DNA of 18,854 bases, taken from contig JAUVUO010000006.1 of assembly GCA_030601015.1 (NCBI GenBank), positions 1 to 18,854 of the forward strand, in the 5' to 3' direction. The notes below the pieces were generated by a model. It did no database searches, was not told the DNA's origin, and saw only the letters and a program-made list of their open reading frames with translations. Source of the stretch: Candidatus Omnitrophota bacterium. Lineage in GTDB: Bacteria; Omnitrophota; Gorgyraeia; Duberdicusellales; 4484-171. The position numbers were made by a program, and so were the translations under genes. Shown one piece after another: positions 2,742 to 18,674 of this stretch (the stretch's first letter is position 1; every line of letters starts with the position of its first letter).

Positions 2742-5432
2742 ATGAACATTTTTTTTCAGAGATTGTTTGATAAGTATGAAATAAACGAAGGCCGGATCGT
2801 AGCATATAATTATGATATTTTTAATGATAATGAGATTATAAAATTATTTAAAGAGTTTGCTCTATTCAATAACCCTTCCCTCATACCTTTAAGAGAAATA
2901 TGTATTAATAGAACGGTAACTCTTATTGATTCCTTTTCTTCTATTTCTGAAACAATCAAGGCCAATTTAGAGAATATATTGCTTTTTAAAAATAAATATA
3001 ATATTTCTGTTGGCCTTGATATTCATCTTTTGTCATTTGATGCAAGCGAAGGATTAACCCTTTGTTCTTTTTTACGAGATATTCAGATAGATTTTATAAA
3101 TTTTATCTTTGATTTCCCTGAAATTAGTGAAGAAAAAACGAATTCATTAATTTTTCATCTTCAGAGATTTTGTTCCGATCCACTAGTTACGAATTCAAAA
3201 ATTTGTTTTAAAAATTTCCCTTTTTGTTTTATACCCCCCCATAGGTTTAGATTTTTGTATCAAGGCCTAATAAAGGAGTTAAAAGGGAATGTATTTTATC
3301 AGCGCCATATTATTAAAGAGTTAGAAAAGAGAAACCCAAAGTTTTTTAGGAAATGTGGGAAGTGTAGATGTAGAATTATTTGTTATGCTTGTTCAGATGT
3401 GCAAGAATTTCCAGATTATGAATTTTTTCTTTCTCCTAAGACGCAAAGCACAGTTGTATTTGTGAGTAGTAGCTTGAAAGTCAAAAGTTTGACAGGAGAT
3501 GAGGATATTCTTTGTATGCCCCCATCAGAACAAGGAGATATGTTTATGTCTATCCTGGAGGGGTTTAAAAATATTTTAATTATAGATGGGTGTCTTTATA
3601 AGAAGTTTCCATGCACGACATTTGAGGTAATGCTTGTACTTGAAAAGGGTATAAATGTTTTTGGTTCTTCAAATATTGGAGCATTGTGGGCTGTTGAATT
3701 AGATAAATATGGAATGAATGGGTTGGGGTATGTATATAATTATCTGAAGAAGCAATTTATTAAACCTTATCATATTGTCGCTCAAATATACAACGAAGAG
3801 GATAATACCCTATCAACATCATTGGTAAGCATTATATATTTTCTTGAATCCTGTCTGAATGAAGGAGGCATTAGTGAAGATGATTTTAAAAGATGTTTTG
3901 AAACCGCTAATGATATTCATTTTATGGAGTTGTCCTTTAAGTTTTTTTTTAACAAGCTAAACGTGTTAAAAATAATCTCCAAGGAGAGTCTTTTGAAATT
4001 GAAAGATTTTTTCTTTTTTAGGGGAGAGGAATATTGGGATATTAAAAAAAAGGATGCTCAACTCCTTGCTATGGAATTTAAAGGTATTTTAAAGGAGAGA
4101 GGCAAAAATTATGTTAATGAAGCGTTTAGCCGGACTAAAGAAAAGTGTTTAAAAGCGCTTCATGCAAAGTACTCTCTCAGTAGAGACTTATCTTTGCCAA
4201 AAAACTGGGCTTCTACCAGGGGAAAAGTGGATAATAAAACAGAATTATGGTCAAGAGATAACAGGGAGCTACCTGTTAAAGAAACCCTTAATTTGGCAGA
4301 AATATTTTTTAATGACTTGGATATAGTTGTTGCAGATACAATTAAGTTTGATTCAACAAGTAATATTATAATTAATATATTTTTTATGCCTTTTTATTTT
4401 TTAGAACGAAATGTATCCTCTTCTACCGGAAACGGGAATAATATAAAAGAAGTGTTAGTTTCGGCATATATGGAATTGTTAGAAAGAATACCTATGTATG
4501 AATTCAGCTCAGTTTTATCTGATTCAGGAAAAAATAATGGCGATATTTTTCTTTATACCGATTTACCTCAGGTTTATAATTGGGATGAAAAAGAAAAGGA
4601 GAAGATGCGATTTATAAAGGATATGGGTTATGTAAAGGTAACTAATATTTTAACAGGCAACAATGTTCTTATTCCGGGATATGCGGCCTTTTCAATAAAT
4701 TCCGGATCTGACGGGAATGCATCGGGCAATTCCCTATCGGAAGCTGTGCTATATGGTATCTATGAACTTATTGAAAGAGATGTTTGCAAGGTTTATGATT
4801 CTATAGATTTGAAACTTAAGAGGGAACTTGTTATAAATAACATGAACATTAAAGATGAAAAGTGTGCTTCTTTGATTAAATTTTTTGAAGTTAAAGGGTG
4901 TAAACCGATATTTTATAATTTTATTAATATTTATAATATTCCATGTGTGAGGTGTGAAGTCTATGATGTGAAGAATAAAATAAAACGTCATGGGGGGACA
5001 GCAGTTAGATCAGACATGAATTCCGCTCTTTTTAACGCCTTATCTGAAGCATACATGGGATATATTATAGATTTTATGGGCATTAAAGATGACAAATGGT
5101 CTATTTTTGATTTCAAGAAGAATCCGGCAGCTTATTTAAATCAAGAAAAGGCGATCCTTTCGGGGAATTTTAAGCCTAATCAAACAATTTTTTCATTTAG
5201 TGGTTTTGATTCTATATTTGAAGAAGTAAATTTTGTTGTTGAAAAACTTATGAATGCCGGAGTCAAAGATATTCTTGTTGTTAATAACAGCCCATTGAAG
5301 AAATTCAAACTTAAAAGTGTGAAGGTTATTATTCCAAATTTAGAATTAGTTTCTATTAAACCTTACAAACCATCGCGTTTATATGAGGCAAAAGTAAAGC
5401 AAACTCGTTTCATGATATCTTGTTTAACTTGA
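2742..5432 (+). CDS. TfuA-YcaO fusion with Cys-rich N-terminal domain
   Basis: This 896-residue protein has three parts. Residues 1-230 look like the C-terminal half of a radical-SAM-type barrel: a PFCFIP motif at 160-165, then a cysteine cluster C205, C208, C210, C214, C217 that could hold a metal or Fe-S centre. No CxxxCxxC is present. Residues about 237-400 match TfuA: PPSEQGD (260-266), ILIIDG (278-283), VFGSSNIGALWAVELDKYGM (306-325). Residues about 520-890 are a YcaO domain, with the ATP-site blocks SAYMELLER (574-582), SLSEAVLYGIYELIER (664-679), GGTAVRSD (751-758) and SEAY (768-771). The tail lacks the PxPxP ending of azoline-forming YcaO proteins. TfuA partners with YcaO in ATP-dependent peptide backbone thioamidation, so thioamide formation is the best guess. 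The substrate is unknown. It heads the five-gene cluster but is separated from the next gene by 100 bases. Confidence 0.85.
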   Translation: MNIFFQRLFDKYEINEGRIVAYNYDIFNDNEIIKLFKEFALFNNPSLIPLREICINRTVTLIDSFSSISETIKANLENILLFKNKYNISVGLDIHLLSFDASEGLTLCSFLRDIQIDFINFIFDFPEISEEKTNSLIFHLQRFCSDPLVTNSKICFKNFPFCFIPPHRFRFLYQGLIKELKGNVFYQRHIIKELEKRNPKFFRKCGKCRCRIICYACSDVQEFPDYEFFLSPKTQSTVVFVSSSLKVKSLTGDEDILCMPPSEQGDMFMSILEGFKNILIIDGCLYKKFPCTTFEVMLVLEKGINVFGSSNIGALWAVELDKYGMNGLGYVYNYLKKQFIKPYHIVAQIYNEEDNTLSTSLVSIIYFLESCLNEGGISEDDFKRCFETANDIHFMELSFKFFFNKLNVLKIISKESLLKLKDFFFFRGEEYWDIKKKDAQLLAMEFKGILKERGKNYVNEAFSRTKEKCLKALHAKYSLSRDLSLPKNWASTRGKVDNKTELWSRDNRELPVKETLNLAEIFFNDLDIVVADTIKFDSTSNIIINIFFMPFYFLERNVSSSTGNGNNIKEVLVSAYMELLERIPMYEFSSVLSDSGKNNGDIFLYTDLPQVYNWDEKEKEKMRFIKDMGYVKVTNILTGNNVLIPGYAAFSINSGSDGNASGNSLSEAVLYGIYELIERDVCKVYDSIDLKLKRELVINNMNIKDEKCASLIKFFEVKGCKPIFYNFINIYNIPCVRCEVYDVKNKIKRHGGTAVRSDMNSALFNALSEAYMGYIIDFMGIKDDKWSIFDFKKNPAAYLNQEKAILSGNFKPNQTIFSFSGFDSIFEEVNFVVEKLMNAGVKDILVVNNSPLKKFKLKSVKVIIPNLELVSIKPYKPSRLYEAKVKQTRFMISCLT

Positions 5433-5521
5433 GAGTAGAGAATTGTTGGAAAATGGAAAATTTTAGGAGCATTTTTATTTTTATATTATTTGGCTTTTTT
5501 TAGGAATAAAATAAATTTTTT

Positions 5522-5535
5522 AGGAGGTTTATATG
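5522..5535 (+). promoter_or_regulatory. Strong ribosome binding site for the SecA-like gene
   Basis: AGGAGG at 5522-5527 stands 5 bases before the ATG at 5533. It is the best Shine-Dalgarno site in the cluster and fixes the start. The 100 bases before it carry repeated T-runs followed by taggag or taggaa, but no clear promoter, terminator or small peptide gene. Confidence 0.7.
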
Positions 5536-7005
5536 AGCATTCTTTCAGAGTGGAAAAGTCTTAAAAAAATAAAAAAAATGGGAATTAACCAAGTGATTCC
5601 TTTTTATGAAAGTTTGTTGAGAGCAGGTGCTATTAATTTTCGTAATATTGACTTTTTGTCCCAAATTAATCCTAAACAAAAAAAAGTTTTTTTAAAAAGT
5701 TTAAGGGTTATTTTGGAAGGCAATATTGTGGAGGTTGGATGTCTGCCTCAATTAGGAATGGCTTTACTTGCCAGCTTATATTTTATTTTAAATGGCAAAC
5801 GGGTTATTTGTATATTTAGTAATATTCTTGAATTTAATTCTTATTCGGAATTATTAAAGATTTATAAGGAAGAACTCGGAATTGATATAGGGGTTAAAGA
5901 AAATGAGGCATCTGAGGAAAAAGATAACTCATACACTAAAGATATTGTTCTTGTTGAGTATGTTAGATTTATTAAGGATTTTTATGCTGACAGGGATTTA
6001 ATAAAGATAAGGCCGACAGTAGCTATTATAACAGAAGTTGATTTGTGTCTTTATGATAGAAGACTTTTTCTTTTTAGGAAAAAAAATTTAACAGCTATAG
6101 CTGCTGTTTATCAAACTAGAAACAATAAAAAATCTTGGCAAGATCAGAAAGAAGTTTTAGACTTTAAGGAGACGGCCCTTTTATTTGATCAGGTTTGCGG
6201 CTTATGCAGTTTAATCACACGTCAAGTTACAAAAGAAATAACAAAGACTTATAAGATTAGTGTGAAAAGTATAGCTAAATTTAATATGGATGCCAGCTTG
6301 CAGACATTAGTTTTTAAGAGCCGGAAAGAAAAGTTTGATGTTTTAGCTGATGATGCGGCAAAAGAAAAAAATGATATTTTAATTGTTTATTATTCTCAGG
6401 AAGGATATCATTCTCTAATTGAAAAATTTAAGGGTTTAAAGAAAAGTGTTGTACTCACTATAAACAACGACAGTGATCTTAATAAATTCTTGAATATGAC
6501 AGGAGATAAAAAGGTTATAGGTTTAGTTCAAGGAACTCTCGGCCTTGACCTTTTGGCATTTTTTAGAGAAAAGAAAGTAAAATTTATTTTGGCAGAACAC
6601 GCGCTATTTTTGCATCATCATATAAAATTTAAGATTTTTTCTAAAAAAAAGTTGGGGGTTCAAGTTAAACCATTGTTATATATTTCTCTGGATGATGAGG
6701 TTGCGAAAATTTATACAGCAGGTGCCGATTTTGCCCAACCATTTAATTTAATAGAATTTATTGAACAGAAATATTCAACCAGATGGATGCGTGAATTAAT
6801 AGCTAGGGGTATTCTACGAAAAATTTATCGATTGCGGTCTGTTTTTTGGGATGAGAATAATCCTCTTTTTACAGAGATTTTTACGCCTTCCTTGGCGGAA
6901 GGTAATAAAATAAATAAAATGAATAAAGAAATGAATAAGCATATTTCAGGTCTTTGCTTTTGCGGGAGCGGGAAAAAATTTAAAGATTGTCACGGGAAAA
7001 TATAA
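5533..7005 (+). CDS. Degenerate SecA-like protein with SEC-C zinc motif
   Basis: The order of SecA landmarks is kept in 490 residues. Residues 63-95 align with the Walker A region, but the GKT triplet position reads GMA (75-77). Residues 161-177 (PTVAIITEVDLCLYDRR) align with the SecA Walker B block, with the first Asp of DEVD changed to Thr167. NBD2 starts near 230: TLVFKSRKEKFDVL (258-271), LVQGTLGLDL (331-340) in place of the GRGTD finger, and PLLYISLDDEVAKIY (380-394), matching SecA FYLSLEDDL. The arginine-rich motif VI is replaced by His/Lys/Phe. The end, CFCGSGKKFKDCHGK (475-489), is a complete SEC-C zinc motif. SecA is usually 800-900 residues. Here only about 60 residues separate Walker B from NBD2, so the preprotein cross-linking domain is absent, and the helical scaffold is cut to about 60 residues. 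It is probably an ATPase-dead adaptor or targeting protein. The function is inferred. Confidence 0.75.
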   Translation: MSILSEWKSLKKIKKMGINQVIPFYESLLRAGAINFRNIDFLSQINPKQKKVFLKSLRVILEGNIVEVGCLPQLGMALLASLYFILNGKRVICIFSNILEFNSYSELLKIYKEELGIDIGVKENEASEEKDNSYTKDIVLVEYVRFIKDFYADRDLIKIRPTVAIITEVDLCLYDRRLFLFRKKNLTAIAAVYQTRNNKKSWQDQKEVLDFKETALLFDQVCGLCSLITRQVTKEITKTYKISVKSIAKFNMDASLQTLVFKSRKEKFDVLADDAAKEKNDILIVYYSQEGYHSLIEKFKGLKKSVVLTINNDSDLNKFLNMTGDKKVIGLVQGTLGLDLLAFFREKKVKFILAEHALFLHHHIKFKIFSKKKLGVQVKPLLYISLDDEVAKIYTAGADFAQPFNLIEFIEQKYSTRWMRELIARGILRKIYRLRSVFWDENNPLFTEIFTPSLAEGNKINKMNKEMNKHISGLCFCGSGKKFKDCHGKI

Positions 7006-7926
7006 ATGTTAGAAGTCTTTGCAACATATAAAAATAGTTTGCTATTTCCGGATCAAGTTGAAGGGGCATCTGCGGATATGCCACTAGACAGGTTTTCTTT
7101 TATACTCGATTTTCTTATTTCCTGCGGATATGATTGTTGTGTTCTAACTGGTAATGAAGTGTTGCGGCATCCTGAGTTAAATGATTTTTTGCTGGTTGCT
7201 GAAAGAAAAAAAATGTCTATAATTATTGAGACGTCAGGATTTCCGAACGGTAAAATAAATGAAATCGCCTCTAGACATAAAATTGCTATTAAGTGGAAGA
7301 TATATCATCCAACAGTTTATAGGCAAGGCCAATATGAACAGTTACTCGGTAATTTGGATATAGTTACCAAAAGGTATAAAATTTTTACAGAGGCCGTTAT
7401 AGTCGTTCACGATTTATCTTTAGATTATAGCTTTATTGCGGATTTTATCAGGGAACAATCAGTTAACAACCTTTATTTAGATATTCTTTGTAAAGCTTTT
7501 GATAGAAGAAAAGAAGAACAATTAAACAGATTACAAAAAATAAATTCCAATTTTTTTGTTTTAATTAAACAGGCTTTTGAAGAAGGGATAAAAACTACTA
7601 TCGGATGCGTTAATGTCCCTTGTGGATTTTCAGATTCCGAGTTTGGAGCTTTGATTAAGATGGGCACTATGATGAAAAAGTGTTTACCTTATCCGGGAGT
7701 TCTGCCTGATCTTAAGGTGTATCATTGTAGGGCATTAATTAATGAGTCTGAAAGGAATTTGGCGAGTTTTAAAAATTGGGAAGGATTATTAGAATATTTT
7801 TTTAAAAGGTATGGGGAAATTCAGGTTAAGACTTTATTTTTTGAACAATGTGAAAGTTGTCTAAGCCGTAGAGCTGAAGTTTGTTTCGGCGGATGTCTTT
7901 TGTTAAAAACAAAGAGTAAAAGATAG
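7006..7926 (+). CDS. Radical-SAM-like protein lacking CxxxCxxC, SPASM-type C-terminus
   Basis: The fold pattern of radical SAM proteins is recognisable: FSFILDFLISCGYDCCVLTGNEVLRHPEL aligns with the usual helix followed by LTGGEPxLHPEL (motif here at 47-58), then IIIETSGF (72-79) for the next strand. The region that should carry CxxxCxxC (about residues 8-25) has no cysteine, so the SAM-binding [4Fe-4S] cluster cannot form in the normal way. The C-terminal cysteines are plentiful: C201, C206, C226, C241, then C282-x2-C285-x7-C293-x3-C297, as in SPASM/twitch auxiliary cluster domains. The start codon abuts the stop of the SecA-like gene (TAA then ATG), which rules out a longer N-terminus in this frame and implies translational coupling. 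It may be a substrate-binding or Fe-S scaffold protein. Residual homology to SPASM proteins is visible; the catalytic role is unknown. Confidence 0.7.
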   Translation: MLEVFATYKNSLLFPDQVEGASADMPLDRFSFILDFLISCGYDCCVLTGNEVLRHPELNDFLLVAERKKMSIIIETSGFPNGKINEIASRHKIAIKWKIYHPTVYRQGQYEQLLGNLDIVTKRYKIFTEAVIVVHDLSLDYSFIADFIREQSVNNLYLDILCKAFDRRKEEQLNRLQKINSNFFVLIKQAFEEGIKTTIGCVNVPCGFSDSEFGALIKMGTMMKKCLPYPGVLPDLKVYHCRALINESERNLASFKNWEGLLEYFFKRYGEIQVKTLFFEQCESCLSRRAEVCFGGCLLLKTKSKR

Positions 7927-7932
7927 AGATAT

Positions 7933-9021
7933 ATGAAAATAATCCTTGGGTTAGATTCTGGTGATACTTCTGAAATTATAGATTCTTATATAAAAGATGG
8001 GGCGGATGAATTTTTTTTAGGGTTTGTCCCTTGCGAGTGGTACAATTATTACGGATGGGAAATAAGCCCAAATCGTAGGACTTATGGACATTCTAGCCAA
8101 TTTACCGAATACGAAAGTTTAGAAAAAACAATTTCCTTGGTACATCAACGAAACAAAAAAATATTTATTGTTTTTAATGCTCATCAATATAATTTTAAGC
8201 AAAGCACTTTACTCAAACAAATAATTTGTAAAATTGAAGAGTTTAACCCTGATGGCTATATTGTGGCTGATCCGGCTTTAATGATTTTATTAAGAGAATT
8301 GGGTATTAAGAGAGCTTTACATTTGAGCACAGGGGCAGCTTGCTATAATAGTGCGGCTATAAAATATTATTCTAAACGATTAGGAATAGACAGAGTAGTT
8401 CTTCCAAGAAAGATGAGTCTTAAGGAAATAGATGGTTTGACCAAGAAGTGTGGTAGTTTGAAAATTGAATTTGAGGCCATGGTAATTTATTATAGGTGTT
8501 ATTTCAATGATGAACATTGTTTCACCTGGCATTCAGGAAAAGAGCAAAATTTTTGTTCTTATTTTGTAGAAACGGAAAAACAAATAAATAAATTGTTTCC
8601 CGAGGATTGGAAAGAGACATTTAATAAAATTTTACAAACTCCTTTAGCTCAATTCGAAGAAGGAAGTTTATTGGATGAGTTTATTAAGGAAAATCACAGC
8701 AAGTTTGTTCCTAATTTTAAAGGGGAAAAATTTTTGCAATCTATTTATCGGCCGGAGAAAGCCAAAGGGATTAGCTCTAGGTTAACAGAATTATTTTTTA
8801 TAAATTGCGGCCTCTGTGCTATTTCAGAATTGAAAAAGTCCGGAGTGACAGTTCTTAAGATTCCTGTTAGAGGGGAACCCCTGAAGAAGAGGAAATTTTT
8901 ACGTATAGTAAAAAAAGTACTTAATAATCGAAATCCTACGAGAGAATTTTGTAGGAGTTTAATAAATAGTCCTGATTTTTGTTTAAAACCGGGCAAATGT
9001 TACTACAATATGGGAGATTGA
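7933..9021 (+). CDS. Peptidase U32 family protein, UbiU-like
   Basis: U32 family barrel of 362 residues. Signs are DGADEFFLG (22-30), the strand FIVFNAHQY (78-86), DGYIVADPALMILLRELG (107-124), LHLSTGAACYNSAAIKYY (129-146) in place of the usual HASTQMNVxN, and RVVLPRKMSLKEI (154-166), corresponding to RVVLARELSLEEI. Cysteines C189, C196, C208 and C292/C295 are placed much as in UbiU and other Fe-S U32 proteins, with C189 and C196 seven residues apart as in UbiU C169/C176. The GLCAISELKKSGVTVLKI block (293-310) matches the family's C-terminal LCxxxxxxELxxAGVxxxKIEGR element. U32 members are either collagenase-like proteases or oxygen-independent RNA/quinone hydroxylases. The cysteines favour the Fe-S class. 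Six bases separate it from the upstream gene, and it pairs with the UbiV-like gene that follows. Confidence 0.8.
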   Translation: MKIILGLDSGDTSEIIDSYIKDGADEFFLGFVPCEWYNYYGWEISPNRRTYGHSSQFTEYESLEKTISLVHQRNKKIFIVFNAHQYNFKQSTLLKQIICKIEEFNPDGYIVADPALMILLRELGIKRALHLSTGAACYNSAAIKYYSKRLGIDRVVLPRKMSLKEIDGLTKKCGSLKIEFEAMVIYYRCYFNDEHCFTWHSGKEQNFCSYFVETEKQINKLFPEDWKETFNKILQTPLAQFEEGSLLDEFIKENHSKFVPNFKGEKFLQSIYRPEKAKGISSRLTELFFINCGLCAISELKKSGVTVLKIPVRGEPLKKRKFLRIVKKVLNNRNPTREFCRSLINSPDFCLKPGKCYYNMGD

Positions 9022-9030
9022 TTTTAGATT

Positions 9031-10005
9031 ATGGAGTTCGCGTTTTATTTATCAACAATTTCAGATTTTAAAAAAATTGCGGATATCTTATGTCCTGTTG
9101 ATTGTACTAAAGCCTCCGCTGAAATAATTCAGGCTTTTTTTGGAGATATATATCAAAGAGAGCATTACGGTAATCTTATTGGTTTGGAGACTTTGCAAAG
9201 GAGTATGTTAAAAAACGAAAAATTTTCACGCTTATATTTTGGGCAGGAGTTTTGTGAGTTTCTTATTCCTAATTTGGAAGAATTAAAAAAAGCCTATTAT
9301 ATTAGCCGACAATTGGATTGGGATTTTAGTTATACTACCGGTTGCCTTACTGAAAATAGTATAGAAAAAGTAAAAAAAAATTTAGACTTTTTGGCTCAGG
9401 AAAAAAAAGAGATAGAAGTGGTTGTTAATGATATAGGTTTACTTTCTTTGATAGCTGAAGAATTTACCTCTTTGCGGCCGGTGTTAGGAAGGTTATTGAT
9501 TAAACAGAAGCGTTTAGATAGTTATTCTTCTTCCTTGAGGCAGATAAATATGGAAGGTATAGATAATTCATATGAGAAAATAGTAAATAATCAAACAGAA
9601 TCACTTAAGACATTAAATCTGTCTATATCGGGTTATAGACAGGAACTTAAAAAATTAGGAATAAATAGGGTAGATATTGATATTGTTTCACAAGGTGTAT
9701 ATTTAGAGCCGGAAGCGTGGAATATTTCTTTCAGCTGTTATTACCCCTGGGCTTATATAACCGGTGGTAGAACTTGTCCAACAGCAGCTATTGCCGACCC
9801 GATTCGTGAATTTGTTGTTGTTGATAAGTCTTGTTCTAAATTGTGCCGAGAGATGAATAGATCTGTTTCGGACAGCCAATTTTTTAAACCAGTGGTTCAA
9901 AGAGGTAATACTGTTTTTATTTTTGTTAATGATTATTCAAGCCCTTATCTTTCAGGGGACATACCGGTGGATAGAATTATTTTTGAACCCGTAATTCCTA
10001 TTTGA
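9031..10005 (+). CDS. U32-related protein, UbiV-like
   Basis: This 324-residue protein is a more divergent U32 relative. The clearest block is EVVVNDIGLLSLIAEEF (129-145) followed by LRPVLGRLLIKQKR (148-161), which follows the UbiV-type pattern of VNDxGxL and PVLGRLLNRQKR. It also shows YYPWAYITGGRTCPTA (237-252), with C249 at the place of the UbiV mid-protein cysteine, and then C268-x3-C272, the same CxxxC spacing as UbiV C193/C197. An additional cysteine (C21, C25 or C75) could complete a four-Cys [4Fe-4S] site. UbiV works as a heterodimer with UbiU, and the gene here follows a UbiU-like gene by nine bases, so a heterodimer is the simplest reading. The substrate is unlikely to be ubiquinone precursors, since no ubiquinone genes are nearby. 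The ATG at 9031 has a weak upstream purine tract. Confidence 0.7.
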   Translation: MEFAFYLSTISDFKKIADILCPVDCTKASAEIIQAFFGDIYQREHYGNLIGLETLQRSMLKNEKFSRLYFGQEFCEFLIPNLEELKKAYYISRQLDWDFSYTTGCLTENSIEKVKKNLDFLAQEKKEIEVVVNDIGLLSLIAEEFTSLRPVLGRLLIKQKRLDSYSSSLRQINMEGIDNSYEKIVNNQTESLKTLNLSISGYRQELKKLGINRVDIDIVSQGVYLEPEAWNISFSCYYPWAYITGGRTCPTAAIADPIREFVVVDKSCSKLCREMNRSVSDSQFFKPVVQRGNTVFIFVNDYSSPYLSGDIPVDRIIFEPVIPI

Positions 10006-10064: not shown

Positions 10065-10532
10065 ATGAATTTAAATAAAAAGAAAACGTTTACAATGATT
10101 GAAATGATGGTTGTTTTAGTTATTATGGCGGTCTTGACAACCGGAGCAGTAGTATCTTTTGGTATGCTTACTCCAAAAAGAGTAGAAAAGGATGCAAGGA
10201 TGCTTATAGCGAATTTGAATTGGGCAAGAGAAAAAGCGATGAATACACATATTCATTATGGTATTAATTTTGATGATGCTAATAAAGAGTATACAATTTA
10301 TGAATCACCCAATGCGAGCGCCGCTCTTGATTTTACGATAGTTAATCAGAAGAAAATAGTGTCTTTGGAGTCAAATATTTCCTTAACCCCATCGGGTTCG
10401 CCTAATCTTTGGTTTTATTCCCCGGCTATAGAAGACAGGAGTTCTAATTCGTTAACAATAATTTTAGATAAAGATACTGCCGTTAAAAATGTGGTTATTT
10501 TTAATGAAACGGGGTTTGTGAAAATATTGTAA
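10065..10532 (+). CDS. Prepilin/pseudopilin, GspH-like
   Basis: A 155-residue type IV pilin-like protein. A short basic leader (residues 1-8) is followed by FTMIEMMVVLVIMAVLTTGAV (9-29), the hydrophobic helix with Glu at +5 (E13) that marks substrates of the prepilin peptidase PilD/GspO. The residue before the cleavage site is Thr8 rather than the usual Gly. The globular part contains DARMLIANLNWAREKAMNTH (39-58), typical of GspH/FimT-like minor pseudopilins, which pack at the tip of the pseudopilus. It is first in an operon with two more prepilins, a GspK/PilX-like protein, GspF, GspL and GspM-like proteins, so it belongs to a secretion or pilus machine in the inner membrane. Whether the machine is T2SS or type IV pilus cannot be decided from this window, which lacks the ATPases, secretin and major pilin. 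Confidence 0.85.
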   Translation: MNLNKKKTFTMIEMMVVLVIMAVLTTGAVVSFGMLTPKRVEKDARMLIANLNWAREKAMNTHIHYGINFDDANKEYTIYESPNASAALDFTIVNQKKIVSLESNISLTPSGSPNLWFYSPAIEDRSSNSLTIILDKDTAVKNVVIFNETGFVKIL

Positions 10533-10560
10533 CCAAAATTGGCGGATTTTATAAAAAGTT

Positions 10561-11010
10561 ATGAGAAGAGGGATTAATAGAAAAAGTTTAAGTTTAATTG
10601 AAGTATCAATCGCAATGATTATATTTGCTATTGTTTCCGGGCAGATGTTTAGGGTTTTCCATGAAGGATTTAAGGTAGGCAGAAAATCTGAGGAAAGAAC
10701 TTTAGCTTATAGTTTAGCAAGAGAGGAAATAGAGGGACTATTTTTTTTGGGCCCTAATTTGTTTTTGGCCAATAATATTTGTACTCGCCCCGGTTGTTCT
10801 GACTCTTATTGCCCTTGTCAAATAACAAGTTTGGTTATTCCCCCTGATGAAGCTAGGGTGGTAGTTGCCGGGTTTGCTGGTATTGAAAGAGAAGTTGATG
10901 TTGTTCATCCTTATTTAACTATTAACGGATTGTCTCATATCAAGGTGACTGTTTGGTGGGACAATAGAAAGGAGTATGAATTTTTTGAAACCTTAAAGGC
11001 TAATTACTGA
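10561..11010 (+). CDS. Minor pseudopilin, GspI-like
   Basis: A 149-residue prepilin with leader MRRGINRKS and helix LSLIEVSIAMIIFAIVSG (10-27). Glu14 is at +5 and Ser9 stands at -1 instead of Gly. The SLIEVxIAMxIFA pattern and the following block ending in SLAREEIEGL (51-60) resemble GspI/PilV-type minor pseudopilins. Four cysteines, C74, C79, C84 and C86, lie close together and could form disulfides outside the inner membrane. The start has almost no ribosome binding site; 28 bases separate it from the previous gene, so translation may depend on the upstream gene. GspI normally nucleates the pseudopilus tip together with GspJ and GspK. Confidence 0.75.
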   Translation: MRRGINRKSLSLIEVSIAMIIFAIVSGQMFRVFHEGFKVGRKSEERTLAYSLAREEIEGLFFLGPNLFLANNICTRPGCSDSYCPCQITSLVIPPDEARVVVAGFAGIEREVDVVHPYLTINGLSHIKVTVWWDNRKEYEFFETLKANY

Positions 11011-11045
11011 TAAATTTTAATTAGGTGTTATAATTGTGGTAAATA

Positions 11046-11630
11046 ATGGATAAAATTAAAGGCAAACAGCTAAAGGAAAGTTTTACTCTCATAGAGATGA
11101 TTGTTTCGATTGCTGTTTTTTCTATTTTAGCTGTAAGTGCGGGCGGTACATTTATTTCAATGAGTGAGTCTTGGAATAGACAAAAAAATAAAGTTTATTT
11201 GATCCAAGGGGTAAGATGGGCTATGGATTCTATTAGCAGGGAGGTAAGAGAATCTGCAGAAAGTGGCTTGGGCCGTCTCAAGGTTAGCGGAGGGGGAGAT
11301 CGTTTGAAGTTTGGTAAGGACAGGGATGGAGACGGTGATTTTGATAATTCCGACAGGCCTTTCATATATTATTGGATTGGAAATGGAGGGGTTTGGGGTG
11401 ATTCTGATAAGTTATACAGAGGAGAAGGTAATAATAGGCCACAAGCAAATGCTAATCGTCAGGAAGCAGTTAATTTTCTTGTTGATCCCAATCCCAGCGG
11501 AAATTATATTTTTGATTTAAGTTCAGGTGTCTTGACTATTGAGTTGACGGTTAGGCCGGATCCGGATAATCCTCCAGATGGAGGGAATCAAGATTATACC
11601 TTGAGGTCAAAGATGCGGCCGAGGAATTAA
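11046..11630 (+). CDS. Minor pseudopilin, GspJ/PilW-like, with EF-hand-like loop
   Basis: A 194-residue prepilin. The leader ends at Ser12 and the helix FTLIEMIVSIAVFSILAV (13-30) has Glu17 at +5. The block VRWAMDSISREVRES (56-70) is typical of GspJ/PilW proteins. Residues 92-103 read DRDGDGDFDNSD, with Asp at loop positions 1, 3, 5 and 12 and Gly at 6, the pattern of an EF-hand or dockerin calcium loop. Calcium binding would be consistent with the Ca-dependent stability known for some pseudopilins, but it is inferred here. The C-terminal part is rich in Asp, Asn, Pro and Gly. The start is preceded by ggtaaata, a poor ribosome site. Confidence 0.75.
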   Translation: MDKIKGKQLKESFTLIEMIVSIAVFSILAVSAGGTFISMSESWNRQKNKVYLIQGVRWAMDSISREVRESAESGLGRLKVSGGGDRLKFGKDRDGDGDFDNSDRPFIYYWIGNGGVWGDSDKLYRGEGNNRPQANANRQEAVNFLVDPNPSGNYIFDLSSGVLTIELTVRPDPDNPPDGGNQDYTLRSKMRPRN

Positions 11631-11688
11631 TTTAAATATTATTTTGTAGATAGTAAACGGTGAATTAATATTGAAAGATTAAGAAATC

Positions 11689-12159
11689 ATGAAAAAAGTT
11701 AAAAGGAATAATTATAGGTCGGCACAAGTCATATTATTTGTTTTCTTTTTACTTATTCTTTCCGGAATTCTAGTTATGGGCCTGCAAAATATGTGGCAGT
11801 CAGAAATACAAACCAGAACTCAGGGGAGAGAGGGCCTGAAGGCTTTTTATATAGCTCAGGCAGGGGTTGAGTACGCAAAAATGAGATTGGCAAACCAGGA
11901 ATCCTGGGTAGGCGGCGGCCCGTTTTCATTTGGGGATGGAACTTTTAATGTGGCAGTTAGAATTGAGCCTTGCCCTGTTGGCTGCGGTTGCTCCGAGTGT
12001 CGGAACATTGAGTCTACAGGGAAAGTATACGATTCTCAGGGAGCACAAATTGCTGAGAGAAAAATATCTGTTAATATTACATTGGACAAAAATCCAAATG
12101 ACCCGCCGGATACCCTTGGTGACGAACAACAACTTGTTTGGAGTTGGCAAGAATTTTAA
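11689..12159 (+). CDS. GspK/PilX-like pilus or secretion component
   Basis: A 156-residue protein with a basic N-terminus and one hydrophobic segment (about 12-32, VILFVFFLLILSGILVMGL), then KAFYIAQAGVEYAKMRL (51-67), the conserved block after the helix in PilX and GspK proteins. It lacks the +5 Glu of ordinary prepilins, as GspK also does. At 156 residues it is about half the length of GspK, so PilX-like is equally possible. A cysteine cluster C95, C99, C101 and C104 is present, similar in spirit to that in the GspI-like neighbour. Its position after the GspH/I/J-like genes fits the usual tip-complex order H-I-J-K. Confidence 0.7.
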   Translation: MKKVKRNNYRSAQVILFVFFLLILSGILVMGLQNMWQSEIQTRTQGREGLKAFYIAQAGVEYAKMRLANQESWVGGGPFSFGDGTFNVAVRIEPCPVGCGCSECRNIESTGKVYDSQGAQIAERKISVNITLDKNPNDPPDTLGDEQQLVWSWQEF

Positions 12160-12192
12160 ATAAGAATTTAAATGAAATATATTTTTTAAAAT

Positions 12193-13413
12193 ATGCAAAG
12201 GTATAATTATACTGCCAGAGATCAGACAGGAAAGATTATCAGAGGCAAGATAATGGCCGAAGATGATGTGGATTTAGCTCATAAGATTTCCAGTTTGGGA
12301 TATTTTCTTACAAATTTTAAAATAGTTTCAGAAGATAGAAATGCTACTCAAGGCAAAATTAAGACAAAAGGCCTTAAAATGAAGCCCAGAGAATTGCTTC
12401 AGTTTACTTATCAAATTTCTACATTAATAGATGCCGGATTGCCCTTATTGAATGGATTAAATGAGTTGGTAAATCAATCTTCCAACGAAACTGTTAGAGG
12501 TATTCTTAGTGATGTTAGATATAGAATAGAGAGTGGGGGGTCGCTAAAAAATGCTTTAGCAGCTTATCCTAAAACTTTTACTCCGATTTATCAAGCTGTT
12601 ATAGGTGCAGGTGAAGCTGCCGGTAAATTGCCGCAGGCGTTAACGGATTTAGCTTATTTATTAGAGTGGCAGCAAGATTTAAAAGCCAAGATTAAAGAAG
12701 CGGCTATGTATCCAATTATACTTTTTGTTGTGCTCACATTTGTGGTTGCAATTTTGGTAGTAAAAGTTATTCCGATTTTTGAACCAATGTTTGAGGCTCA
12801 AGGCCAGGATTTGCCGTTACCTACACAAATTGTTTTAAATGTAAGTAGTTTTGTCCGTAGTTTTTGGTATTTAATGATTGGGAGTGGTGGTTTGTTATTT
12901 GGAGTATATAAGGCGTATTATTCGACTGAAAACGGTAGATATATTATTGATAGCATAAAATTAAAAATGCCTATAGTTGGAGATTTGATTCGGAAAACAG
13001 TCCTTTCTCGATTTTCTCATATTTTTGCGTTAAGTTTTAAATCAGGAATAAATCTTTTAACTTGTTTGGATACAGCTAAAGATGCTTGTGCTAATGAACG
13101 GATAGAGAGGGCTATCGAGAAAGTTAGAAATTCAGTTAATGTTGGGGAAAGATTAGCGGATTCTTTAAAAGCCAGTAATGAATTTCCAAATATGGTTGTC
13201 AGCATAATTAGCGCGGGAGAACAGTCAGGAGCTTTAGCGGAAACATTAAATAAGGTTGCGAGTTTTTATGATAAAGAAGTAGAAGTTACGACTAAAAGAA
13301 TTTTTGTTTTAATGGAACCAATAATGATAGTTATAATGGGCATAGTAGTTGGCGGTATAGCGGTAGCTATATTCTTACCAATGTTTCAAATGGGGGACAT
13401 GATAGGAGGTTAG
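12193..13413 (+). CDS. gspF: Type II secretion/type IV pilus inner-membrane protein GspF/PilC
   Basis: This 406-residue polytopic inner-membrane protein is the platform that couples the assembly ATPase to the pseudopilus. The N-terminal YNYTARDQTGKIIRGKI (4-20) is characteristic. Two T2SSF domains follow: one at about 68-190 (FTYQISTLIDAGLPLLNGL at 76-94, then GAGEAAGKLPQALTDLA) and one at about 270-395 (FALSFKSGINLLTCLD, SAGEQSGALAETLNKVASFYD). Transmembrane segments lie near 172-195, 223-243 and 373-398. The ATG at 12193 has no recognisable ribosome binding site in the AT-rich stretch before it, 33 bases after the preceding gene. Both GspF and PilC names apply; the operon context with GspH-K-like and GspL/M-like genes tips the choice to GspF. 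Confidence 0.92.
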   Translation: MQRYNYTARDQTGKIIRGKIMAEDDVDLAHKISSLGYFLTNFKIVSEDRNATQGKIKTKGLKMKPRELLQFTYQISTLIDAGLPLLNGLNELVNQSSNETVRGILSDVRYRIESGGSLKNALAAYPKTFTPIYQAVIGAGEAAGKLPQALTDLAYLLEWQQDLKAKIKEAAMYPIILFVVLTFVVAILVVKVIPIFEPMFEAQGQDLPLPTQIVLNVSSFVRSFWYLMIGSGGLLFGVYKAYYSTENGRYIIDSIKLKMPIVGDLIRKTVLSRFSHIFALSFKSGINLLTCLDTAKDACANERIERAIEKVRNSVNVGERLADSLKASNEFPNMVVSIISAGEQSGALAETLNKVASFYDKEVEVTTKRIFVLMEPIMIVIMGIVVGGIAVAIFLPMFQMGDMIGG

Positions 13414-13419
13414 GTTTTG
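13404..13419 (+). promoter_or_regulatory. Strong ribosome binding site supporting a TTG start
   Basis: AGGAGGT at 13404-13410, overlapping the last codons of gspF, stands six bases before TTG at 13417-13419. The TTG begins SNFIGIDIGT, the exact N-terminus expected of a PilM-type actin-like fold, so TTG is the true start. Confidence 0.8.
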
Positions 13420-15264
13420 TCAAATTTTATAGGTATAGATATTGGAACTGTTTTTACTAAGGTAGCTGTCTTAAGCAAAAAAAACTATATTAAAAAGATA
13501 TTTTTTTTTATGACTCCTTATGGAAATAGAGAAGGATTGAACAGCATAGATAAGGATATATTTGTAAAAAAAATAACTGAAAATATTTCTAAAGGGGATT
13601 TGATAACTTCTTCAATTGTTATGAATGTTCCTTCTTCTTCTATCTTTGTTATGATTGTTGACTTGCCGAAGATGTCAAAAAAAGAACTGGGAGTAGCGGC
13701 TGTTTCTGAAGTAAAGAGAAAAATGGTACCGCCTCCGACATCCAATAGCGTTTTTGAATACAAAATTATGGGGGAAAAAGTTGTAGAGGATGTTTCATTT
13801 GTAGAAGTTTTAGTTATAAAAACGGAGAGTGAGTATGTAAATAATCTTTTAAGCCTTTTTTTAACGATTAAAGGAAAGTACCCTGATATAATTATACCCA
13901 ACTCTGTTGTTATCGCGAAAAATTTAAGAAATTCACTTAGAGATAAATTTTGCGCTATCGTTGATATTGGCTATGAATCTACAAATATTTCTGTGGTTAA
14001 TAAAAATAATTTGTATTTTTCTAGAGATATAAAATTTGGATTAAAGAGTCTTTATGAACATTTCGCGGGGGTTGTTAACGTTTCTATTGGTGAAATGGAG
14101 GCTATTATTCAGAAAGAAGGTGTGCCTTTTGTAGATTTTGATATAAGGGATAAAGTGAGGGTTGCTGAAGAAATAATGCGTCAAAAATATGAAGATTCTT
14201 TAAAAGGAAATGAACAAAAAATAAATCTTTTGGAATTACGAATGCTGTGGGAGGAAGTTCTTCAAAGAATGAGTAGTGAGATTAGAAGAAGTGTATCTTT
14301 TTATAAACAGCAGTACAGAGGAGAGGGAATTGAAAATTTTATATTTTTTGGAGGCGGATCCTCAATAAAAGGTTTAGTGAGCGAGATAGGCAAATCTTTA
14401 GAAGGAGAGTGTGAGGTTAGTGATGTTTTTAAAGGTATAAGCTGGGAGACAGGTAATGAGGATATGATAAATAGATTTGGCCCATTATTGGCGCCGTCAG
14501 TTTATCTTGCGATGAGTGTTTCTGAAGTATCTCGAAAAGAAGATGCTATTAATTTTATTCCTAAAAAAATTAAGAGGCGAAAAAATATAATTAAACGTCA
14601 ATTTTTTATATTTTTGCTAATTGTTGGTTTGATTCTTATTAATTGTTTAGCCGGATATATCATGGTTAGGAGCTGCAAGAAAAAAGAGAGGATTCTAAAA
14701 AATATTGAAGCTGGAATAAGAAAATTTGAGAATGCTGTTAATGTTTTAAATATACTTGAAAAGGATAAAGTTGATTTTAACAATAAAGTTAAAGAAATGA
14801 ATAGGATTATCAGTAAACGAGTGATAAATTCAGAGATATTAAAACAGATTTTTAATTGTATCCCTAAAGAGGCAGTTCTTTTGAGCCTTAAAATGAATAA
14901 GAAAATTCAAGATGAAGATAGCGAAGGATTAATGGACGGAGGAATGAATAGTGAAGAAGGGGCAGGGCTTATGATGAATAGTGAAGAGGGGGCAGGGCTT
15001 ATGATAAATAGAGGAACAGGAGAAGAGCTTTTTGGTGTATATCAAGTGCGTATTGAAACATTAATATTTAATGAGTATGAGAAATCAAAGAAAATTATGG
15101 AGGGATTTAGTGAAAGATTGCGGAACTGTAAACAGTTTACAAATACTAAACTTGTACTTCCTGTCCAAGAGGAATTGAAGCCCCGGTTTGAAGGAGGCGG
15201 ATTTATTTCTTTATCCATTAAGAAGGAAAGAAAGTTTATAATAACAGCAGATATTAGAAGATGA
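13417..15264 (+). CDS. PilM-PilN fusion (GspL-type) inner-membrane assembly protein
   Basis: A 615-residue protein. Residues 1-370 form a PilM-like actin fold: FIGIDIGTVFTKVAVL (4-19) is the phosphate-1 motif, AIVDIGYESTNISVV (about 180-195) the phosphate-2 motif, and FFGGGSSIKGL (about 309-319) the adenosine motif. NFIPKKIKRRK (about 379-389) is the equivalent of the PilN 'INLLP' start, followed by one membrane helix (about 391-414), a coiled coil and a ferredoxin-like periplasmic part. GspL of T2SS has this same architecture, so the protein is either GspL or a PilM-PilN fusion. It recruits the assembly ATPase to GspF. Residues 510-529 are a perfect two-copy repeat, MNSEEGAGLM, followed by a diverged third. 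Translation starts at TTG and the end overlaps the next gene by four bases. Confidence 0.85.
   Translation: MSNFIGIDIGTVFTKVAVLSKKNYIKKIFFFMTPYGNREGLNSIDKDIFVKKITENISKGDLITSSIVMNVPSSSIFVMIVDLPKMSKKELGVAAVSEVKRKMVPPPTSNSVFEYKIMGEKVVEDVSFVEVLVIKTESEYVNNLLSLFLTIKGKYPDIIIPNSVVIAKNLRNSLRDKFCAIVDIGYESTNISVVNKNNLYFSRDIKFGLKSLYEHFAGVVNVSIGEMEAIIQKEGVPFVDFDIRDKVRVAEEIMRQKYEDSLKGNEQKINLLELRMLWEEVLQRMSSEIRRSVSFYKQQYRGEGIENFIFFGGGSSIKGLVSEIGKSLEGECEVSDVFKGISWETGNEDMINRFGPLLAPSVYLAMSVSEVSRKEDAINFIPKKIKRRKNIIKRQFFIFLLIVGLILINCLAGYIMVRSCKKKERILKNIEAGIRKFENAVNVLNILEKDKVDFNNKVKEMNRIISKRVINSEILKQIFNCIPKEAVLLSLKMNKKIQDEDSEGLMDGGMNSEEGAGLMMNSEEGAGLMINRGTGEELFGVYQVRIETLIFNEYEKSKKIMEGFSERLRNCKQFTNTKLVLPVQEELKPRFEGGGFISLSIKKERKFIITADIRR
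14944..15003 (+). repeat. In-frame tandem repeat, 30 bases x 2
   Basis: Two adjacent 30-base units (14944-14973 and 14974-15003) differ at a single base and each encodes MNSEEGAGLM. A shortened, diverged third unit follows to about 15030 (INRGTGEEL). The repeat keeps the frame and falls in the linker of the periplasmic part of the PilM-PilN protein. Such a repeat can change copy number by slippage. Confidence 0.85.
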
Positions 15265-15902
15265 AAGGATTTAAATATATTGTAATCATAGGTATTATTT
15301 TATGGATAGGGAGTACAGTAGCCGTTATTCTTCCATTGAAGAATAGTATTGAGTTGAAAAAAGATTTAATTAGTAAAGAAAAGGATTTAGAAAGAGGAGT
15401 TAATGCAAATAAAGAAATAGGAAGAATACAAAAAAATGTTTTTAACCAAAAATTGGAAACATTAATAATTGAAGAAAAAATACCTAAAAATGAAAAAAGC
15501 CAAGTTGATCTAATTAAAATGCTGTCATCTGTTGCCCAAAAGGCTGGATTTCAAAACATAGCGTTTACCATTGAAAAGAATAAGAAGAGTCAAGACGATA
15601 TGTTTATGGGAAATATTTCACTATCTAATGGCGGAAGCGGGACGGTCAGCGATGATTTTTCTTCTTTCTCTGAAAATGGGGGGCAGAGTGATTCAGGGGG
15701 AGGCAATGTTTCTTTGGTAGAACCCAGCATATTTATATTAGAGGGGGAAATTAAATCCCAGTTAATTTTTTCTTTTTTAGAAGAGGTGTTGAATTTAAAA
15801 CGTTTGATAACTATAGAATCAATTGAGATTGAGCAGTCATCTGAAATATCCCCGAGGCAGAAGGTGAAAATAACACTTGTCTCTTATTCTTTTCTGAATT
15901 AA
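15261..15902 (+). CDS. PilO/GspM-like inner-membrane assembly protein
   Basis: A 213-residue bitopic protein: short cytoplasmic start, one membrane helix (about 5-25, YIVIIGIILWIGSTVAVILP), then a charged coiled coil (27-60), and two segments compatible with the PilO/GspM ferredoxin-like fold, KSQVDLIKMLSSVAQKAGF (79-97) and IFSFLEEVLNLKRLITIESI (about 168-187). They are separated by a Gly/Ser-rich insertion at about 118-150 that is probably disordered. The ATG overlaps the stop of the PilM-PilN gene (ATGA), so the two are translationally coupled, as expected for partners that heterodimerise around the assembly platform. Sequence conservation is low for this family, so the call relies on topology, length and position. 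Confidence 0.75.
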   Translation: MKGFKYIVIIGIILWIGSTVAVILPLKNSIELKKDLISKEKDLERGVNANKEIGRIQKNVFNQKLETLIIEEKIPKNEKSQVDLIKMLSSVAQKAGFQNIAFTIEKNKKSQDDMFMGNISLSNGGSGTVSDDFSSFSENGGQSDSGGGNVSLVEPSIFILEGEIKSQLIFSFLEEVLNLKRLITIESIEIEQSSEISPRQKVKITLVSYSFLN

Positions 15903-17386: not shown

Positions 17387-17995
17387 ATGAAAGATGAGAT
17401 GGATATCTTGAGAGAGGTGGGAACTATTGCAGCAGCCCACGCAAGCACTGCTCTTTCGACAGTTTTAGGGAAGAAGATCGATTTGTACTTACCTACTATG
17501 GAAATTTTGTCGGCAGAGGATATAGGCTCTGCGATGGGTAGGAAAGATATGAAGTTTGTTATAGAAAATGAGATTCTTTCGGGAATTGAAGGTAAGATTG
17601 TATTTATACTTACTGAAAAAGATGCATATAAATTTATAAATTCTTGTTGCCAATTGCCGGGGGATGGAGGGAAAGGTGATTTGACAGAAATGTGTATATC
17701 GTTACTCAAAGAAATTGATAATATTATTGTATCAAGCTATTCAAATGCTCTGAGTTCTCTTTTAAATAAAATAATTATTCCCTCCTTGCCGGTATTGATC
17801 AATGCGCCGTATGAAACAATGGCCAGATTACTTATTAACGATTATCGAAAAGAGAAATATATTATAAGTATCAGCACGGTTTTTGAACAAAAGGAAGAAA
17901 AGATAAAAGGATGTTTTTGGGTTTTATTGACTCCGAAGTCTGTTGAAGAAATTAAATTGGGATGTAGAGAAATCCTCGAAAGTGTCAAGAAGTAG
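17387..17995 (+). CDS. CheC-like protein, first of a tandem pair
   Basis: A 202-residue cytoplasmic protein of the CheC/FliY/CheX phosphatase group, which dephosphorylates CheY-type receivers. CheC carries two copies of a D/S-x3-E-x2-N-x22-P motif. The second copy is perfect: S105, E109, N112 and P135, within SLLKEIDNIIVSSYSNALS. The first copy reads D6, E10, T13 and P36 within DILREVGTIAAAHASTALS: everything fits except that Asn is replaced by Thr, so this site is probably inactive. The gene is followed 61 bases later by a paralogue and then by a receiver-like protein, which may be its substrate. No flagellar or other chemotaxis genes are in the window, so the output could be twitching or another two-component circuit. 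Confidence 0.8.
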   Translation: MKDEMDILREVGTIAAAHASTALSTVLGKKIDLYLPTMEILSAEDIGSAMGRKDMKFVIENEILSGIEGKIVFILTEKDAYKFINSCCQLPGDGGKGDLTEMCISLLKEIDNIIVSSYSNALSSLLNKIIIPSLPVLINAPYETMARLLINDYRKEKYIISISTVFEQKEEKIKGCFWVLLTPKSVEEIKLGCREILESVKK

Positions 17996-18059
17996 AAAAT
18001 AAAAAGTTTAATTAATTTTTATATATAGGTAATATGTATTAAGAGAAAAGGGGAAAATG

Positions 18060-18674
18060 ATGAAAGAAGAGATGGATATACTGAGAGAAGTCGGTACTAC
18101 AGCTGCAGCACATGCCAGCACAGCATTATCTTCCGTATTAGGTGAAAAAATTAATATATATTTACCTGAAGTAGAAATTGTTTCGGTGGATGAGGTAAAA
18201 AATAAAATCCATAGTAAAGATGTACAATGCATTATTGAGAATAAAATTTTGTCGGGATTAGACGGTAAAGTGATTTTTATTTTACAAGAAAAGGATGCTT
18301 ATAAATTTATAAATATGTGCTATACAATGAAAGGCGAGATTAGTAAGGGCGCAGTAACAGAAATCAGTATATCTTTGCTGAAAGAGATAGATAATATAAT
18401 AGTTTCGAGTTATTCCAGTTCTTTAGGTAAGCTTTTAAATAGAATTATAATCCCTTCACTTCCAGTTTTTATAAATGCTCCATTTGACAGGGCTTTAGAA
18501 TTGTTGTTACGGGATTATGATAATCAAAAGTATGTTATGAGTATTACAACTGTTTTTGAGCAGATGGAATTAGATATAAAAGGATGTTTTTGGATTTTGC
18601 TCACTCAAGCTTCCGTAGATGATATTAGGCAAGCTTGCTTAAATATGATTAACGGGATAAAAAATTGTAAATAA
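18060..18674 (+). CDS. CheC-like protein, second of a tandem pair
   Basis: This is a paralogue of the preceding gene, aligned without gaps over nearly the full length: MKEEMDILREVGTTAAAHAS against MKDEMDILREVGTIAAAHAS at the start, and SLLKEIDNIIVSSYSSSLGKLL in the second site. The second CheC motif is intact (S105, E109, N112, P135), while the first again has Thr13 in place of Asn. An ATG three bases upstream (18057) is also possible, but the ATG at 18060 aligns with the paralogue and is six bases from the AAGGGG ribosome site, better than the three bases for 18057. The middle region (about 41-60 and 88-98) and the tail are the most diverged, suggesting distinct partners. It is probably co-transcribed with its neighbour. 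Confidence 0.8.
   Translation: MKEEMDILREVGTTAAAHASTALSSVLGEKINIYLPEVEIVSVDEVKNKIHSKDVQCIIENKILSGLDGKVIFILQEKDAYKFINMCYTMKGEISKGAVTEISISLLKEIDNIIVSSYSSSLGKLLNRIIIPSLPVFINAPFDRALELLLRDYDNQKYVMSITTVFEQMELDIKGCFWILLTQASVDDIRQACLNMINGIKNCK

Follow-up and report, generated by a model that had tools for sequence, protein, structure and literature searches.

The window analysed here, a stretch of 18,854 nucleotides, is contig C56 of a 1.47 Mb draft genome of a Candidatus Omnitrophota bacterium (241 contigs, 80.7% complete). At 2742-10005 it carries five consecutive genes, which the original prediction had tentatively read as a single system for thioamide formation and anaerobic hydroxylation of a protein or peptide that is then exported. 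Coordinates of the open reading frames (ORFs), Pfam and NCBIfam matches, family alignments and the cysteine motif of the fifth gene bore out the placement of the five genes on one strand and the families named for them. The genes are as follows:

2742-5432, plus strand: gene 1, 896 amino acids (aa), a fusion of an N-terminal domain (~230 aa), TfuA and YcaO
5533-7005, plus strand: gene 2 (SecAl), 490 aa, a SecA-derived protein that lacks Walker A and keeps the zinc-type SEC-C tail
7006-7926, plus strand: gene 3 (rSAMl), 306 aa, a radical-SAM/SPASM-derived protein without CxxxCxxC
7933-9021, plus strand: gene 4 (U32a), 362 aa, a UbiU/TrhP-like U32 protein with E181-x7-C189-x6-C196
9031-10005, plus strand: gene 5 (U32b), 324 aa, UbiV-like by motif, with C75 ... 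C249-x18-C268-x3-C272

The spacings between the five genes are 100, 0, 6 and 9 bases.

Genes 2, 4 and 5 form a cassette that recurs in distantly related bacteria. A profile (A5) built from the long form of U32b (34 proteins) matched 10 of the 288 genomes in the phylum of a Lentisphaerae genome; in nine of these 10, SecAl, U32a and U32b are adjacent in the order of the window. The SecAl profile matched 18 of 197 genomes of one distant class, probably Lentisphaeria. The three genes lie on one contig, in the order and strand of the window, in 16 of the 18 (among them G512, where SecAl itself runs off the contig); of the other two genomes, one has the cassette split across two contig ends (G804) and one has it cut by a contig end (G797). 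A SecAl (P0003) and a U32b (P0117) were also both listed on one 48,760-base metagenome contig. That a distant class has the three genes in identical order is more than chance. The neighbourhood of genes 2, 4 and 5 is conserved beyond the close relatives. In a tree of 18 SecAl proteins, that of the window clustered with P0002, P0003, G512 and G788 (95/94; the program warned of meeting long branches). SecAl was present in 1 of 58 relatives, namely the window's own genome. Where genomes are drafts, as here, absences are uncertain. The first protein search with SecAl returned 3 proteins out of 7999 scored candidates and was perhaps swamped by SEC-C words. At one locus (L149:5800-9875), one SecA-like gene is followed by two tandem U32a-U32b pairs.

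Family alignments were needed for the label "SecA-like" of gene 2 and for the label "inactive radical SAM/SPASM" of gene 3. In Pfam, gene 2 gave SEC-C above the cut-off and SecA_DEAD at just E 0.09. The SecAl family resembles SecA in its SEC-C tail and in the second motor region, with a whole-sequence E of 1.8e-9 (1.2e-4 against chains matched in the motor region alone), and the first motor part was aligned by position only (1.2 bits). The tail, which in SecA binds SecB and ribosomes, is kept in 12/12 SecAl proteins. Unlike SecA, SecAl has lost Walker A: none of 18 members has G-x-GK[TS], and the position reads, for example, GCLPQ or GSGPQ. The spacer regions are also shortened, to 46 residues between the motor parts (~150 in SecA in the same alignment) and to 55 before the tail (~246 in SecA). 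The export step of the original prediction found no support, since the ATPase and large parts of SecA are gone from SecAl.

Gene 3 alone matched Pfam Radical_SAM at E 0.076 and NCBIfam SPASM at E 0.007, and some members of its family matched SPASM enzymes (PqqE 1.1e-5, TIGR04133 1.2e-5, TIGR04347 1.7e-4). The family has this similarity and SPASM-type cysteines in common with radical SAM/SPASM and pseudo-SAM/SPASM (TIGR04347) proteins. Unlike radical SAM/SPASM enzymes, it is tied to SecAl and the U32 pair and has CxxxCxxC in 0/15 members; GNE replaces GGE in 14/15, and seven cysteines are invariant. Two of 17 rSAMl sequences were excluded from analyses A10 and A12: L191 is nearly the same sequence as L187, and a contig end truncates L197. 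Most rSAMl homologues bear TPR repeats, which are absent in the window protein. The inactive look of the SecA and radical SAM relatives, already remarked in the window, is therefore a property of both families.

An rSAMl profile made from the sequences of the window and of G788 was searched against 60 selected genomes. A full-length rSAMl was found in 15 of the 18 SecAl-positive genomes at 7.2e-36 or better (G788, a source of the profile, is counted). The SecAl-negative set comprised 21 genomes, namely the 20 listed among 179 negatives and G612; one of them, G792, had a partial match (7.6e-29) starting at a contig end, and an rSAMl homologue without detected SecAl therefore exists. Fisher's test on 15/18 versus 1/21 gave p 4.6e-7, kinship being ignored. 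Weak matches were obtained in 6 of 20 Omnitrophota genomes with short U32 pairs (best 2.0e-8) and at unrelated second loci of some positive genomes; because the latter score alike, the weak matches look like ordinary radical SAM proteins. In G788 the gene 3 homologue faces the cassette, and its ORF ends ~140 bases from U32b. Outside G788 and the window, rSAMl lies on other contigs or, in G481, 2.5 Mb off on the same contig. The inclusion of gene 3 in the set was thus upheld by co-occurrence and by proximity in one distant genome (L151), and elsewhere the gene occupies a separate locus.

Gene 4 matched Pfam Peptidase_U32 with 89.7 bits, above the cut-off. Its best NCBIfam match was TrhP (4.5e-22), with UbiU next (1.8e-18), both far below the equivalog cut-offs; the UbiU model matched 17/17 U32a proteins. 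The motif E-x7-C-x6-C (E181, C189, C196), whose residues are essential in TrhP according to an excerpt of PMC6599085, is invariant in all 17. Gene 5 had no Pfam match, and NCBIfam gave just an irrelevant one at E 0.11. Gene 5 is called UbiV-like from its cysteine pattern, not from a database match: the four cysteines are kept in 34/34 long and 26/27 mixed members, and they resemble the UbiV pattern CXnCX12CX3C (excerpt of PMC6747719), although the middle spacer ranges over 9-18 where UbiV has 12. The cysteines of both families are consistent with the Fe-S (iron-sulfur) type proposed for the pair at the outset.

Two known systems resemble the pair. The UbiU-UbiV(-UbiT) O2-independent ubiquinone hydroxylase, as described in the same excerpt of PMC6747719, also has two adjacent U32-type genes; U32a shares its CX6C, and U32b has a UbiV-like CXnCXnCX3C. 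However, U32a is far below the equivalog cut-off and has another cysteine spacing, no UbiT was seen, and SecA-like and radical-SAM-like partners are present here. TrhP and YrrN/YrrO are prephenate-dependent tRNA hydroxylases, the latter encoded by tandem U32 genes in B. subtilis (excerpt of PMC6599085). U32a keeps their E-x7-C-x6-C, whereas U32b is unrecognised by U32 models and dead partner proteins accompany the pair here.

From the families, motifs, losses, gene order and co-occurrence described above, we infer with about even confidence that genes 2-5 encode a conserved system of four parts, namely an O2-independent Fe-S hydroxylase pair and two partners that are catalytically dead. U32a and U32b would most likely form a heterodimer that hydroxylates without O2 in the manner of UbiU-UbiV/TrhP, in which each subunit may hold a [4Fe-4S] cluster. 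The oxygen would perhaps come from a shikimate-pathway metabolite such as prephenate. SecAl, without ATPase and with SEC-C kept, and rSAMl, with SPASM-type cysteines kept, would act as non-catalytic partners that either bind and present the substrate or keep the complex assembled. Because no linked precursor or recurrent exporter was seen in the loci read, a regular constituent of the cell, whether RNA, the ribosome or some conserved protein, is favoured as target over a ribosomally synthesized and post-translationally modified peptide (RiPP). In the window, reading of 2037-2741 revealed no convincing small ORF for a RiPP precursor (short peptides can escape notice), and a scan of 18 proteins or fragments of the window showed no ABC exporter. 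Gene calls were longest-ORF picks that hid some true genes, so the neighbour lists are incomplete.

U32 hydroxylases are a young class with few established substrates (quinones, tRNA and 23S rRNA). If the module is real, it would show how O2-independent hydroxylation is aimed at its target and would reveal new non-catalytic jobs for the SecA and radical-SAM folds; it also provides a defined gene set for finding a new anaerobic modification. In a partial literature search, where absence carries little weight, nothing was found that combines U32 peptidase, radical SAM and YcaO, or Lentisphaer, U32 and SecA.

Several observations weigh against the four-part system. The tenth locus matched by A5 (L123) has a U32 pair without SecAl, and short U32 pairs in Omnitrophota also exist without it; thus the SecAl and rSAMl partners are not always needed. 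The profile search detected no rSAMl in SecAl-positive G512, G797 and G799, and rSAMl stands apart from the cassette in 14 of 15 genomes. SecAl-positive genomes may be kin, in which case the counts are inflated. As to the hydroxylase assignment, the UbiU score of gene 4 is 66.8 bits against a cut-off of 440 bits, and U32a keeps CX6C, not the UbiU pattern CX6CX16CX38C (its invariant C292, C295, C350 and C356 are spaced otherwise). Only 1 of 27 U32b members matches a U32 model, at E 0.064, which is not significant. On the supporting side, a fused shikimate kinase/3-dehydroquinate synthase gene adjoins rSAMl in 5 of 15 fetched loci (L187, L188, L190, L191 and L193), and the shikimate pathway leads to prephenate, which TrhP needs (excerpt of PMC6599085); however, the carriers fall into two groups of kin, and this neighbour is therefore only a lead.

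A possible but doubtful alternative is that the module hydroxylates tRNA or rRNA, as TrhP and RlhA do, and that SecAl binds RNA or ribosomes as a dead relative of helicases. It would fit TrhP as the best NCBIfam match of gene 4, the retained E-x7-C-x6-C, and the modification of B. subtilis tRNA by the tandem U32 pair YrrN/YrrO (excerpt of PMC6599085). The neighbours of the cassette give it some weight: a gene with UPF0004, Radical_SAM and TRAM domains adjoins U32b in five loci checked (L116, L117, L121, L145 and L147). From these domains we take it to be of the MiaB type. However, such neighbours come from a single part of the SecAl tree, and others, such as L151, lack them. SecAl matched DEAD-box helicases, but weakly (E about 0.02), and no RNA-binding domain was seen.

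It is unlikely that the five genes share one protein or peptide as their substrate, on which a thioamide made by TfuA-YcaO would lie near a site hydroxylated by the U32 pair while SecAl and rSAMl present the substrate. The five-gene arrangement would be an anaerobic parallel to E. coli uL16, where the thioamide at Met82 adjoins hydroxylated Arg81 (excerpt of PMC13063428). The genes are adjacent on a common strand in the window, and no plus-strand terminator-like site was listed in the 100-base gap behind gene 1. In G077 (Ca. Kaelpia imicola), moreover, a short U32 pair lies near a YcaO-TPR gene, so a YcaO and a U32 pair occur together in at least two genomes of the window's class. However, the gap itself sets gene 1 apart, and co-occurrence tested in both directions was negative: the fusion profile gave nothing at E 0.001 in 18/18 SecAl-positive genomes (9 + 9), and the SecAl profile gave nothing in 4/4 other genomes with the fusion. 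When the contigs of 33 fusions were compared with those of the 120 listed of 406 U32b homologues (size-matched by eye), only that of the window was common. A place for the TfuA-YcaO gene within one five-gene system was thus not supported, and the thioamidation and export idea found support only in part.

A bolder version of the four-part system supposes a new anaerobic modification machine: a UbiU/UbiV-like Fe-S hydroxylase, with a dead SecA motor that retains its zinc-type tail and a dead radical-SAM/SPASM protein as regular subunits, that recruits ribosomes or new polypeptides and is joined in this Omnitrophota lineage by TfuA-YcaO as an oxygen-free counterpart to uL16 hydroxylation and thioamidation. 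We regard this as quite improbable.

Gene 1 is probably a thioamide synthetase that adjoins the module in this lineage and is not part of its core. TfuA (67.6 bits) and YcaO (97.5 bits) were above their Pfam cut-offs, and gene 1 also matched known structures of the two domains (E 4.2e-34 and 5.6e-30). Both domains are common to TfuA-YcaO thioamide synthetases, including the fused tfuA-ycaO known in Burkholderia thailandensis (excerpt of PMC8120280); unlike these, gene 1 has an extra conserved N-terminal domain, and it scores 114 bits against the McrA-type equivalog, whose cut-off is 235 bits. TfuA and YcaO were found in all 33 fusion relatives (the window's own included; the others share 32-56% identity), and the ~230-residue N-terminal region is conserved in all except P0021, which lacks it. 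This extra domain is the unusual part of gene 1. It was considered as a U32 or radical SAM piece and rejected: no Pfam family other than TfuA and YcaO matched more than 1 of the 33, and profile comparison gave probabilities of 14% one way and 0.8% the other against rSAMl, and ≤1.1% against U32a and U32b.

At E 1e-20 the window genome was alone among 384 in its phylum in having the fusion, the other match being the YcaO-TPR protein of G077; at 1e-40 the centre genome was alone among 387 in a second phylum. Long fusion homologues in GTDB genomes numbered four (L003-L006) among 24 loci. In two (L003:4662-8014 and L004:13669-16766) the genes after the homologue encode another YcaO and a radical SAM protein carrying a B12-type domain; in another (L006:12589-13727) it is followed by ThiS and ThiF genes, and sulfur supply is a described role of ThiS-like carriers that go with TfuA (excerpt of PMC13063428). 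A viral origin was considered and rejected: IMG/VR gave no confirmed relative of the gene 1 fusion or of SecAl.

Hydroxylation of a quinone or other lipid by the U32 pair, as by UbiU-UbiV, is highly improbable: the UbiU model matches every U32a and U32b has UbiV-like cysteines, but U32a scores far below the UbiU cut-off, and in 18 scanned proteins or fragments of the window no SCP2 (UbiT-type) domain or quinone gene was found. Modification of the pseudopilins encoded downstream is far-fetched. The pilus block begins on the same strand at 10065, 60 bases after the end of gene 5 (10005), but relatives L050 and L051 have this block and lack the cluster, and no pilus genes were noted beside the cassette in genomes of the distant class.

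U32 pairs are more widespread than the cassette. U32b was matched at 1e-8 in 29 of 384 genomes of the window's phylum, the window's included. Of 20 loci read in 19 of these genomes, 17 have U32a directly beside U32b and two have them one to a few ORFs from each other; the remaining locus (L101) is cut and has no U32a match. SecAl was not found in these 20 Omnitrophota loci. Within three genes of the pairs (L084-L103), 37 of 96 neighbours had Radical_SAM and 10 of 96 B12-binding domains, as raw counts. The 96 remained of 114 candidate ORFs after removal of 4 at stretch ends and of 14 others; ORFs with N had been excluded beforehand. The U32 pair looks like a reusable unit that is often near radical SAM proteins, and the module in the window looks like a version of it whose radical SAM relative is dead.

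In G077 (L052:3373-9784), the short U32a/U32b pair is accompanied by a U32-like TPR protein and the divergent YcaO-TPR protein; further along are a nucleotidyltransferase (PF14907) and a weakly HprK/AAA-like gene.

The pilus block of the window (10065-15902) comprises three pseudopilin genes with N-methylation motifs, a small gene, and GspF, PilM-like and PilO-like genes. Orthologues of this block occur in the same family and order (identity of GspF 48-51%), so the window contig is at home in its lineage. Upstream of gene 1, at 2428-2606, are two G+C-rich hairpins and an ORF fragment without a Pfam match, which we take, from its motif, to resemble a remnant of a REP (repetitive extragenic palindrome)-associated transposase; this region is perhaps an old insertion edge. 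Two tandem CheC-like genes lie at 17387-18674 of the window.

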